A stretch of DNA of 38,316 bases from a virus: IMG/VR virus record IMGVR_UViG_3300020156_000060, positions 1 through 38,316 of that record; one strand, written 5' to 3'. The position numbers and the translations under genes were made by a program. The number at the start of each line of letters is the position of its first letter. The first letter of the stretch is position 1. Positions 30,758-35,355 of this stretch are shown piece after piece. A model generated the notes under the pieces. It was not told the DNA's origin. It ran no database searches and saw only the letters and a program-made list of their open reading frames with translations.

Positions 30758-30766
30758 CCCTACGGC
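30751..30766. terminator. Palindrome shared by two convergent stop codons
   Basis: GCCGTAGCCCTACGGC forms a 7-bp stem with a 2-base centre. It holds both TAG stops: the lipoprotein (30755-30757) and, on the minus strand, the repressor (30762-30760). It could act as a short two-way termination or pausing element. Confidence 0.4.
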
Positions 30767-31392
30767 ATCCGCGTCCAGAGCACCGGCCGGTACCATGCCA
30801 CCTTCGCGTCGGCCGGCAGCTGCACCCCGCTGATCCCGGGCCAGGCAAGGATCGCCGTGACCTTCCGCCCAGTGCGGTGCACGTGCGCGACGACGGCGTC
30901 CTGGCGCGCGAGGCCGACGACGCAGCAGCGCTTCGCCGGCAGGTCGGTCGGCGGGCCGAGGTACAGGATCGCGCCGCCGTAGGTCCCGCCCTCGACCGCG
31001 ACAGCGGTCCCGCCCTTCGGCATCGGCCCGGGCGCGACGACGTGGTCGCCGCCGGTCTGGTCCCACTCGGCGGCGACGCGGCCGGCGTCGTCGACCAGGC
31101 CGACCAGCGGCACGCCGCCGGCGGCGGCCGGCCCCGGCGCGGCGAAGCCCGCGCGCGCGACGATCTCGGCGAGCGGCTGCTCGAGCGCGGCCGCCAGCTG
31201 CACCGCCTCCTCGAGCGCCATCCGCCGCCGGCCGTGCAGCAGCGCGTGCAGGCCGGCCTTGTCGAGCGGCTCGCCGGCGCGGTTGCGCAGGCGCTCAGCC
31301 AGCGCCGTCTGGGTGCCGACCGTCTCCGCGATGCACTCGAGGAACCACTCGGTGTCGATGCCACGGCGCCGGCGGATGGTGGTCGTGCTCAT
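30760..31392 (-). CDS. CI-like repressor with a degenerate LexA/S24 domain
   Basis: A 210-residue protein. Residues 1-85 hold a helix-turn-helix (TQTALAERLRNRAGEPLDKA; GLHALLHGRRRMALEEAVQL). The C-terminus has the start of an S24 peptidase-type domain (GVPLVGLVDDAGRV near 92-105). The usual GDSM serine motif appears as VEGGTYGGAILYL near 131-143, and the usual lysine strand as DAVVAHVHR, without Lys. It would bind operators at 31409 and 31481 as a dimer but probably cannot cleave itself. It is divergent from the Cro-like gene at 31505. Confidence 0.8.
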   Translation of the reverse strand: MSTTTIRRRRGIDTEWFLECIAETVGTQTALAERLRNRAGEPLDKAGLHALLHGRRRMALEEAVQLAAALEQPLAEIVARAGFAAPGPAAAGGVPLVGLVDDAGRVAAEWDQTGGDHVVAPGPMPKGGTAVAVEGGTYGGAILYLGPPTDLPAKRCCVVGLARQDAVVAHVHRTGRKVTAILAWPGISGVQLPADAKVAWYRPVLWTRMP

Positions 31393-31408
31393 GGGCTTGC
31401 AGTTTCAC

Positions 31409-31497
31409 TTTCGACAACGCCGCTCAAGCGGGATTGGTGCAGACGCACCATGCGTGTAAGATCAACACCTTGACCCTTGAGTTGTCGAAAACACAAC
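31409..31497. promoter_or_regulatory. Operator pair of the first switch
   Basis: TTTCGACAAC at 31409-31418 is the exact reverse complement of GTTGTCGAAA at 31481-31490. The right copy extends to GTTGTCGAAAACACAAC, with GTTGT/ACAAC arms, to 31497. Another symmetric element, ACGCACCATGCGT, is at 31443-31455. They fill the gap between repressor and Cro-like gene. Confidence 0.65.
31434..31462 (+). promoter_or_regulatory. Candidate promoter of the Cro-like gene
   Basis: TTGGTG (31434-31439) and TAAGAT (31457-31462) have a 17-bp spacer. The symmetric element at 31443-31455 occupies the spacer and the GTTGTCGAAA operator lies just downstream of the expected start of transcription. Confidence 0.45.
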
Positions 31498-31504
31498 GTG
31501 GTGG

Positions 31505-31792
31505 ATGCACCTCAACCCCGCCGAGTTCGCGAGTCACGTGTTCGGCGGGTACAACCGCCTGGCCGTCGCGCTGGGTGTCCAGCGGTGGATGGTCCACAAG
31601 TGGGCCAAGCGCCCACGATCGCAGGGCGGGACGGGCTTCGTCCCCTGCCGCTACCAGGCGCAGCTGCTCCTGATCGCGCGCGAGCGCGGTCTCGACCTGA
31701 AGGCCGAGGACCTGGTCTACGGGCGCGACGTCGCCGACGGCGTGGTCTGCACCGCGGCCGCGCTCGCCGCTCCGTCGCCGCTGCCGGTGTGA
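31505..31792 (+). CDS. Cro-like DNA-binding protein
   Basis: A 95-residue protein from ATG 31505. It reads MHLNPAEFASHVFGGYNRLA, then VALGVQRWMVHKWAKRP as the turn and recognition helix, and CRYQAQLLLIARERGLDLK. This is the short HTH typical of Cro-type proteins divergent from CI. The last 25 residues overlap the end of the leftward gene at 31717 on the opposite strand. Only a weak ribosome binding site (GTGGTGG) precedes it. Confidence 0.7.
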   Translation: MHLNPAEFASHVFGGYNRLAVALGVQRWMVHKWAKRPRSQGGTGFVPCRYQAQLLLIARERGLDLKAEDLVYGRDVADGVVCTAAALAAPSPLPV

Positions 31793-32653: not shown

Positions 32654-32683
32654 TTGACCGCGTCATAAGTCCCTGGATACAAT
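32654..32683 (+). promoter_or_regulatory. Strong sigma70-like promoter next to attP
   Basis: TTGACC (32654-32659) and TACAAT (32678-32683) have an 18-bp spacer, the best promoter match seen in the window. Transcription would start near 32690 and run through the tRNA-like core and antisense into the integrase gene. Confidence 0.6.
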
Positions 32684-32718
32684 GCCGACCCTGTGCCCAC
32701 CTGTGTTCATATGGTCCC

Positions 32719-32772
32719 ACGAATCGGATTCGTAAAGCGAAGGTCGGAGGTTCAAATCCTCTCTTGGGCACC
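32719..32772 (+). other. attP: Probable phage attachment site (attP) with 3' part of a tRNA-Thr-like sequence
   Basis: From 32729 the sequence reads as the 3' part of a tRNA: loop TTCGTAA (anticodon CGT, Thr), AGCGA stem strand, AGGTC variable loop, GGAGG/CCTCT T-stem around TTCAAAT, CTTGGGC acceptor strand, A, CC. The expected 5' partners are mostly absent, so it is not a normal whole tRNA. A palindrome, ACGAATCGGATTCGT (32719-32733), covers the anticodon loop. The integrase ends 14 bases downstream. This is the classic attP layout for integration into a tRNA gene, in which the phage restores the tRNA's 3' end. GTGCCCA at 32693 also pairs with TGGGCAC at 32765. Confidence 0.7.
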
Positions 32773-34091: not shown

Positions 34092-34101
34092 TTGTCGAAA
34101 A
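34092..34101. promoter_or_regulatory. Third copy of the first-switch operator core
   Basis: TTGTCGAAAA matches the operator core at 31482-31491 exactly. It lies between int and the rightward gene at 34152. The CI-like repressor may thus also control one of them. The outer arm is not conserved. Confidence 0.4.
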
Positions 34102-34151: not shown

Positions 34152-34367
34152 ATGCGTAAGCCCCCGAAGGGGCGCCGGCGGCCCGAAGCGCCGGCTGATC
34201 CGTCGGCCACCAGTACCCTGGCCGACCTGGGCGCGGCAGACCCGCGCGCGGCGCTGAAGAACCTGAGCCTGCGCCGGCTCTACCACGTCGAGCACATGAA
34301 CGACGACGCCGACGCCATGATCGCGCAGCTGATGCGTCAGCGCGGCTTGGGTGGCGGCGTCGGGTGA
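34152..34367 (+). CDS. Small basic hypothetical protein
   Basis: A 71-residue protein, MRKPPKGRRRPEAPADPSAT at the start, with a helical second half (AALKNLSLRRLYHVEHMNDD). ATG 34152 is favoured over an upstream in-frame ATG at 34059 because codon bias starts there. Its last 31 bases overlap the convergent repressor gene. A TTGACA lies at 34049 but without a good -10 partner. Function is unknown. Confidence 0.5.
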   Translation: MRKPPKGRRRPEAPADPSATSTLADLGAADPRAALKNLSLRRLYHVEHMNDDADAMIAQLMRQRGLGGGVG

Positions 34368-34747
34368 CGCTGCACGGGCGGCGGGGTGCGCGGCGTGCGC
34401 GCCTGCTGCTCGTCGAAGAGCCGGCGCAGCGCGGAGTGCTTCACGGCGAGGTCGTCCATCCGCACCAGCATCCGCTCGAGGCGGACGCGCGCCTCCGGGC
34501 TGGGGACGTGCGTCAGGGCTGCGAGGTCGAAGAACCGGTCGCGCTCTGCCGAACCCTCCGGCAGGTCGAGGGCATCGGCCCAGACGGGCACATGCTCCAT
34601 CGGGACCGGACGCGTGCCGGCGCGGATCATCGAGAAGACCGTATGCGCCTGCCCGACCCGCGCGGCGAACTCGCGTAGCGATAACCCCTTGGCCTTGACC
34701 AGGCTGTAGAGCAGATCGTCGAACGCGGGCACACGGGATGCTACCAC
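34337..34747 (-). CDS. Second repressor-type HTH protein
   Basis: A 136-residue protein with a GTG start at 34747, preceded by AGGAT; GTG 34732 is an alternative. AFDDLLYSLVKAKGLSLREF, AARVGQAHTVFSMIRAGTR and a following helix form an XRE-type helix-turn-helix near residues 8-50. The middle is helical (RVRLERMLVRMDDLAVKHSA) and the end Pro-rich. There is no peptidase domain. It is divergent from the small HTH gene at 34859, with two matching operators between, so it is likely a second repressor. Confidence 0.7.
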   Translation of the reverse strand: MVASRVPAFDDLLYSLVKAKGLSLREFAARVGQAHTVFSMIRAGTRPVPMEHVPVWADALDLPEGSAERDRFFDLAALTHVPSPEARVRLERMLVRMDDLAVKHSALRRLFDEQQARTPRTPPPVQRHPTPPPKPR

Positions 34748-34757
34748 GGCAACGCCA

Positions 34758-34785
34758 ATCCTAGAGTTTTCCTTGCGTTTGGTAA
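34758..34785 (-). promoter_or_regulatory. Candidate promoter of the second repressor
   Basis: On the minus strand TTACCA (34785-34780) and TAGGAT (34763-34758) have a 16-bp spacer. The -35 box lies inside the first operator, which would allow self-control. Confidence 0.4.
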
Positions 34786-34800
34786 CTGGACGTGGTACCA
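34780..34800. promoter_or_regulatory. Second-switch operator O1
   Basis: TGGTAACTG, a variable GACG, then TGGTACCA. The arms TGGTA and TACCA are inverted. It is nearly identical to O2, with 17 of 21 positions matching, and overlaps the -35 box of the leftward promoter. Confidence 0.6.
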
Positions 34801-34807
34801 GACGAGC

Positions 34808-34852
34808 ATGCGGGCGGCGATGGGCCGCCCTTCTTTCGGCAACCCCTGGTAA
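34808..34852 (+). CDS. Possible 14-residue leader peptide
   Basis: ATG 34808 to TAA 34852 encodes MRAAMGRPSFGNPW. It covers the terminator-like hairpin and ends 6 bases before the next gene's ATG, which has no ribosome binding site of its own. Reinitiation after this leader could supply that gene's translation. Confidence 0.35.
   Translation: MRAAMGRPSFGNPW
34812..34836 (+). terminator. Terminator/attenuator hairpin in the second switch
   Basis: GGGCGGC (34812-34818) and GCCGCCC (34824-34830) form a 7-bp stem with a 5-base loop, followed by TTCTTT. It is the best intrinsic-terminator shape in the window, placed between O1 and the HTH gene. Confidence 0.6.
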
Positions 34853-34867
34853 CTGATCATGGTACCG
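34847..34867. promoter_or_regulatory. Second-switch operator O2, over a start codon
   Basis: TGGTAACTG, variable ATCA, then TGGTACCG. It repeats O1 67 bp downstream and covers the ATG (34859-34861) of the HTH gene. Confidence 0.6.
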
Positions 34868-35125
34868 TTCCCCGACTGGCTGAGCGACCGCATGCGCGCC
34901 TCCGGTTATGACGCGGAGACGCTGGCACGCGAGGTCAACCGTTCGGCGGCCTGTGTGCGGCACTGGCTCGGTGGCGTGCACCTGCCGCCGACAACGTGCT
35001 TCGCCGGCCTCGCCGAGGCGCTGCAGGTCGACGAGTCCGAGTTGCGGAGGGTGGTCATCGCGAGCCGTCCGGAGGGGGCGGCACACTGCCAGCCCTCGAC
35101 GACCGCGCCAGGGGTGCGGTCGTGA
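34859..35125 (+). CDS. Small HTH protein, Cro-like (second switch)
   Basis: An 88-residue protein (MVPFPDWLSDRMRASGYDAE). ETLAREVNRSAACVRHWLGG is a helix-turn-helix, followed by FAGLAEALQVDESELRRVV. It is divergent from the second repressor, as Cro is from CI. The start codon lies inside operator O2 and lacks a ribosome binding site, so translation may depend on the short leader frame. The end overlaps the next gene (GTGA). Confidence 0.7.
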   Translation: MVPFPDWLSDRMRASGYDAETLAREVNRSAACVRHWLGGVHLPPTTCFAGLAEALQVDESELRRVVIASRPEGAAHCQPSTTAPGVRS

Positions 35126-35355
35126 CCCCGCGCATGGATCCGCTCGTGGTCGACGGCGTGCTGCGCCCCGACCTCGACCGCCGCTGGGTGCCGCGAGCGA
35201 CGCTCGCGCGCTACCTCGGCGTGACAGGCGAGACCGTCTACCAGCGCCACCTGCGCGGCGAGTTCCCGCCGGCCGCGATCAAGCTCTTCGGCTCGCGCAC
35301 CTGGTACTGCCCGGCGCTCTGCGTCGCGGCCGCGCCGGTGGAGGCGGCGCCGTGA
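35122..35355 (+). CDS. AlpA/excisionase-like DNA-binding protein
   Basis: A 77-residue protein with a GTG start. RWVPRATLARYLGVTGETVY, QRHLRGEFPPAAIKLFGSRT and WYCPAL resemble the AlpA/MerR-type winged helix of excisionases and late regulators. It is coupled to the Cro-like gene. Given int and attP nearby, an excisionase role is reasonable. Confidence 0.6.
   Translation: MTPRMDPLVVDGVLRPDLDRRWVPRATLARYLGVTGETVYQRHLRGEFPPAAIKLFGSRTWYCPALCVAAAPVEAAP

Follow-up and report, generated by a model that had tools for sequence, protein, structure and literature searches.

The regulator locus and its neighbours

The window analysed here, by which we mean the whole stretch of DNA, is a virus record of 38,316 bases with a G+C content of 71%. 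Judging from its predicted genes, which include a GP7-type capsid, a BPP-1-like connector, an integrase, Erf and an exonuclease, its source is an uncultured temperate phage. The connector is about 40% identical to that of the Bordetella phage BPP-1, and its best relatives in viral contigs reached 45% identity. The genes and neighbouring elements are as follows.

30763-31792, minus and plus strands: second divergent pair, a 210-aa CI-like gene (minus) and a 95-aa P22-Cro/YdaS-like gene (plus), weak profile matches
within 32654-32772: 3′ half of a tRNA-Thr(CGT)-like sequence adjoining the integrase gene, probable attachment site
34152-34367, plus strand: open reading frame of 71 aa, convergent with rep2, whose end it overlaps, and without a family match above the cut-off
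34337-34747, minus strand: Rep2, HTH-type regulator of about 136 aa, inferred start GTG 34747
34859-35125, plus strand: Cro2, Cro-like HTH gene of 88 aa (Pfam HTH_31, E=5.5e-6, at the cut-off)
35122-35355, plus strand: next gene, weak MerR/excisionase-type HTH (phrog_2474, E=0.0035; phrog_66, E=0.0043)

Rep2 and Cro2 are HTH genes transcribed away from each other across a gap that carries the putative dyad operators, as in a repressor/Cro region, the assignment of Rep2 being based on weak profiles (phrog_8 transcriptional regulator, E=0.0034; Pfam HTH_3, E=0.021, below the cut-off). The AlphaFold2 model of Rep2 had a pLDDT of 79, and Foldseek aligned it with C.BclI (probability 1.00, E=0.09) and 434 Cro (probability 0.99, E=0.55). 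The modelled fold thus resembles the restriction-modification C proteins and 434 Cro, with E-values that are not significant. Cro2 also matched the regulators phrog_2967 and phrog_3949; its single-sequence fold was of too poor a quality for use. The gene following Cro2 overlaps its stop codon (GTGA), and early-type genes (HTH, Erf, exonuclease) lie downstream.

The gap of the second divergent pair is flanked by two TTGTCGAAA sites (31408-31417 and 31482-31491), and a third copy is located between int and rep2 (34092-34101). With one mismatch at most, TTGTCGAAAA gave four matches in the window versus 0.15 expected. The phage thus has two regulator pairs, of which Rep2/Cro2 probably serves to open the early operon.

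No exact match to the tRNA-Thr-like attachment sequence was found in the genome search, and single matches occurred in Escherichia and Hafnia records, which do no more than hint that the tRNA is of a gammaproteobacterial type. This tRNA-like 3′ half is also where TTGACC-18-TACAAT, the top-ranked promoter-like site of the window, points; from its orientation, it would transcribe antisense to int.

Searches for relatives gave no useful hit for Rep2, Cro2 or the integrase in viral contigs, for the integrase in the genomes searched, or for the two regulators in plasmids. Phage records likewise contained no useful relative of any of these three proteins, one of the searches giving only insignificant matches (E 0.06) to Pseudomonas phage repressors. 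Neither Rep2 nor Cro2 matched anything in 48 connector-related phage records. The divergent gaps of 20 connector-related phages, examined with crude gene calls, contained no regulator pair with a terminator.

Two exact dyads between rep2 and cro2

The sites located in and around the gap between the two genes are listed below.

34738-34767, plus strand: predicted rightward promoter ATGCTA-18-TAGAGT, rank 17, start near 34774
34740-34748, no strand: GCTACCACG, possible additional half-operator where rep2 begins
34758-34785, minus strand: predicted leftward promoter of rep2, TTACCA-16-TAGGAT, fourth-best site of the window
34773-34801, plus strand: weaker alternative rightward promoter TTGCGT-17-TACCAG, predicted start on the first base of the leader ATG (34808)
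34781-34799, no strand: putative operator O1, GGTAACTGGACGTGGTACC, exact 19-bp dyad
34808-34852, plus strand: 14-codon frame ATG...TAA, an open reading frame only, possibly incidental
34812-34836, plus strand: predicted intrinsic terminator directed toward the Cro-like gene, stem and loop at 34812-34830 followed by a TTCTTT tail
34848-34866, no strand: putative operator O2, GGTAACTGATCATGGTACC, exact 19-bp dyad

O1 and O2 both fit GGTAACTGNNNNTGGTACC exactly, with no difference between them at any specified position. Nothing else in the window matches this pattern when up to three mismatches are allowed (0.12 expected from shuffles), and the next-best dyad of the window fits at 10 of the 12 half-site positions. 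O1 is embedded in a longer dyad (about 34776-34804) and, as RNA, folds into a hairpin. It shares bases with the −35 element of the predicted leftward promoter, and the predicted rightward start is located a short way upstream of it. O2 spans the start codon of the Cro-like gene (ATG 34859) together with the stop of the leader frame. The half-operator GCTACCACG is an inverted repeat of the right half of O1, with 9 of 10 positions conserved. We also observed a direct repeat, CGGCAACGCC (34747-34756, at the rep2 start) and CGGCAACCCC (34837-34846, just before O2), which is possibly a second kind of site.

Scans for similar operators elsewhere were unproductive. The operator-pair pattern retrieved 11 loci, which were tandem or other repeats, none of them a comparable regulator gap. 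A single operator retrieved 8 loci, of which seven lay within open frames and all lacked a second full site in the vicinity.

Promoters were predicted as consensus matches and ranked on both strands with a sigma-70 matrix of consensus frequencies, which may not suit the host. The leftward promoter has its −35 inside O1, and its predicted start near 34751 lies four bases ahead of the probable GTG of rep2, so that the rep2 message would be almost without a leader. The rightward promoter ATGCTA-18-TAGAGT has a poor −35. No acceptable promoter was found at 34800-34862, the best candidate (TTCTTT-18-GATCAT) being of rank 250 with a start past the ATG.

A terminator-like hairpin between O1 and O2

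The hairpin GGGCGGC-GATGG-GCCGCCC comprises seven G-C pairs and a five-base loop (−15.8 kcal/mol). The G+C-rich stem is directly followed by a U-rich tract, as expected for an intrinsic terminator, the tail TTCTTT corresponding to an interrupted U-tract. The hairpin is directional, GCATGC and no T tract coming after the stem in the leftward reading. Both strands of the 38.3 kb were scanned with a d'Aubenton-Carafa-type formula for the terminator score d. The hairpin scored d = 16.0, and except for a shifted form of it, no other site on the two strands scored above zero. Shuffling the whole window (n=20) yielded 0.05 sites of that score per shuffled window, and shuffles of the local region reached d = 16.0 in 0.03% of trials. 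It is thus well supported by these sequence statistics that a terminator-like element lies between the two operators, ahead of the Cro-like gene, beyond chance. Since no other intrinsic terminator in the whole window scored positively on either strand, the late operons probably end otherwise.

In the predicted RNA covering 34774-34836, the O1 hairpin is followed by the terminator (z −2.94). The terminator stem was kept in the minimum-energy folds, which contained no competing antiterminator helix. A pairing between O1 and O2 that would hide the cro2 start, and which arises because the operators are palindromic, was not significant (z −1.37) and disappeared in a longer fold.

A sequence-only reading of this DNA had described both operators, and a hairpin with a TTCTTT tail inside the 14-codon frame. 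Both descriptions were borne out: the window has no exact 19-bp dyads of this kind besides O1 and O2, and the hairpin is present inside the frame.

The 14-codon frame and the ribosome sites

The frame encodes MRAAMGRPSFGNPW from ATG 34808 to TAA 34850-34852. It is in phase with the Cro-like gene and stops 6 bases before ATG 34859. When the whole gap was shuffled and ATG starts only were counted, a comparable frame appeared in 3-12% of cases; the lower value, 3%, was for frames of 14 codons or more that begin with ATG and end no further than 6 bases from the start of the Cro-like gene. When O2 was kept unshuffled, a frame of at least 14 codons ending in O2 arose in 11% of the shuffled gaps if only ATG counted as a start, and in 25% if any start did. 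This high chance is due to the three reading frames of O2 (TGA, open and TAA), since the stops in two of them set the end of the frame. O2 being fixed by its own role and carrying stops, the nearness of stop and start results mostly from the operator sequence. The Shine-Dalgarno pairing of the leader (−4.8) is weak and within the background range, and MRAAMGRPSFGNPW contains no regulatory codon run. The proposed leader peptide may be no more than a frame open by chance. The geometry nevertheless permits a leader mechanism, since the 5′ arm of the hairpin would be occupied by any ribosome translating the leader.

The ATG of cro2 has no Shine-Dalgarno sequence (−2.8 kcal/mol; background median about −2.75). 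None of the four regulator genes has a clear one (CI1 −1.8 and Cro1 −0.9 for the pair at 30763-31792, Rep2 −4.8, Cro2 −2.8). Thirteen genes, mostly structural or recombination genes, all have clear sites (median −7.2, weakest −5.6), a contrast that is partly selected because they were chosen as confident genes; weak sites occur in a few others as well. That cro2 has a bare start is therefore no mark of a reinitiation design, because the missing Shine-Dalgarno is common to the other regulator genes, and leaderless or weak translation of the regulators is an equally good reading of the bare starts.

These data bear on the remaining claims of the sequence-only reading. The 14-codon frame ending 6 bases before the start codon is indeed present. 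Its proposed design as a leader peptide does not exceed chance, given the 11-25% of shuffles with O2 fixed and the lack of a clear ribosome site. The second Cro-like start lies inside O2 and is devoid of a ribosome binding site, as had been claimed, but the latter feature is shared with the other regulators of the phage. From the translation-sensitive attenuator that had been put forward, we retain the terminator between the operators on the basis of the sequence statistics; control by leader translation and reinitiation did not find support.

Discussion

The organization of the locus suggests that a promoter-proximal intrinsic terminator attenuates rightward transcription from a divergent regulator pair, forming a brake composed of operators and terminator, a model to which we give an even chance. 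Rep2 and/or Cro2 would bind O1 and O2. A regulator at O1 would occlude the −35 element used by rep2 and obstruct transcription from the rightward promoter, and at O2 it would block RNA polymerase at the start of cro2. The terminator would end much of the rightward transcription escaping O1, and cro2 and the early operon would open only if the promoter fires often or antitermination occurs. Candidate ways to relieve the terminator are antitermination, leader translation or plain promoter strength. Within this model, we infer the promoters, their start sites, the binding protein, and the activity and relief of the terminator.

Alternative explanations of the hairpin were weighed. In a sequence of 71% G+C hairpins are common, and a loose rule expects 0.5 terminator-like sites in a 2.1-kb scan, so the hairpin might be a G-C repeat arisen by chance and without function; under the stricter score, however, it has no equal in 76 kb of strand (0.05 expected per window, 0.03% of local shuffles), which makes this highly improbable. 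The terminator might instead act as an insulator, stopping rightward transcription from upstream (for instance from the open reading frame at 34152-34367), with cro2 expressed from a promoter over O2 as a leaderless or near-leaderless message. A rightward open frame does exist upstream with no positive-score terminator in between, the regulator genes here are without Shine-Dalgarno sequences, like leaderless messages, and O2 is located where such a promoter would be. The segment 34800-34862 nevertheless offers no acceptable promoter, only the candidate of rank 250 that starts after the ATG, and we consider the insulator unlikely.

Ribosomes could also control the terminator: translation of MRAAMGRPSFGNPW would open the hairpin and allow read-through, and a ribosome ending at TAA 34850 would reinitiate at ATG 34859. 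Such a mechanism is consistent with a hairpin lying wholly within the frame, with a stop 6 bases ahead of an in-phase start that lacks a Shine-Dalgarno, and with the weak promoter match that would put the leader ATG at the 5′ end. It is rendered doubtful by the 11-25% probability of the frame given O2, by a leader without a clear ribosome site whose stop is dictated by the operator sequence, and by a peptide without a run of control codons. The lead is moreover so short that the polymerase would usually be past the terminator before a ribosome loads. Still more ambitious is a triple gating in 90 bp, with two operators for one protein, a terminator between them, and a leader frame tying both termination and start-codon access to ribosomes, by which the switch would sense the translation state of the host; this we hold to be quite improbable.

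The operator-plus-terminator brake can be compared with several known systems. The closest described arrangement that we found, likened by the kinds of parts it has, though in a different order, and not by sequence, is isrK-orf45-anrP of the Gifsy-1 prophage, where a promoter is followed by an intrinsic terminator with partial read-through, and a small open reading frame is translationally coupled to the downstream anrP (PMC4825925). The Gifsy-1 terminator is located ahead of the small frame, which has its own ribosome site and is opened by a trans-acting short RNA (PMC4825925). In the phage studied here, by contrast, the hairpin lies within the frame, which is without a clear ribosome site and is placed between two operators.

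Attenuators of amino-acid operons such as trp encode a leader peptide in a short frame that overlaps an intrinsic terminator before the first gene. A short frame also overlaps the predicted terminator ahead of cro2, but neither control codons nor an alternative antiterminator hairpin were found. The stoperators of mycobacteriophage L5 are short, asymmetric and numerous. As at these sites, a repressor bound inside the transcribed region could block elongation, which we propose for O2, although here the sites are two symmetric dyads.

The literature searched, with partial journal coverage, contained no terminator between a lytic promoter and cro, a result that speaks only weakly for novelty. Lambda has its operators grouped at the promoters and its rightward terminator, tR1, beyond cro. 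The present locus resembles the CI/Cro region of lambda in its divergent regulators, in the dyad operators between them and in the early genes that follow the Cro-like gene. It differs in that the terminator precedes the Cro-like gene, O2 covers the start codon, and a second CI/Cro-like pair is present at 30763-31792. If the terminator works, the phage adds a termination brake before its Cro-like gene, between two repressor sites, and would provide a compact case of operator control combined with attenuation, where textbook lambda has its terminator after cro.
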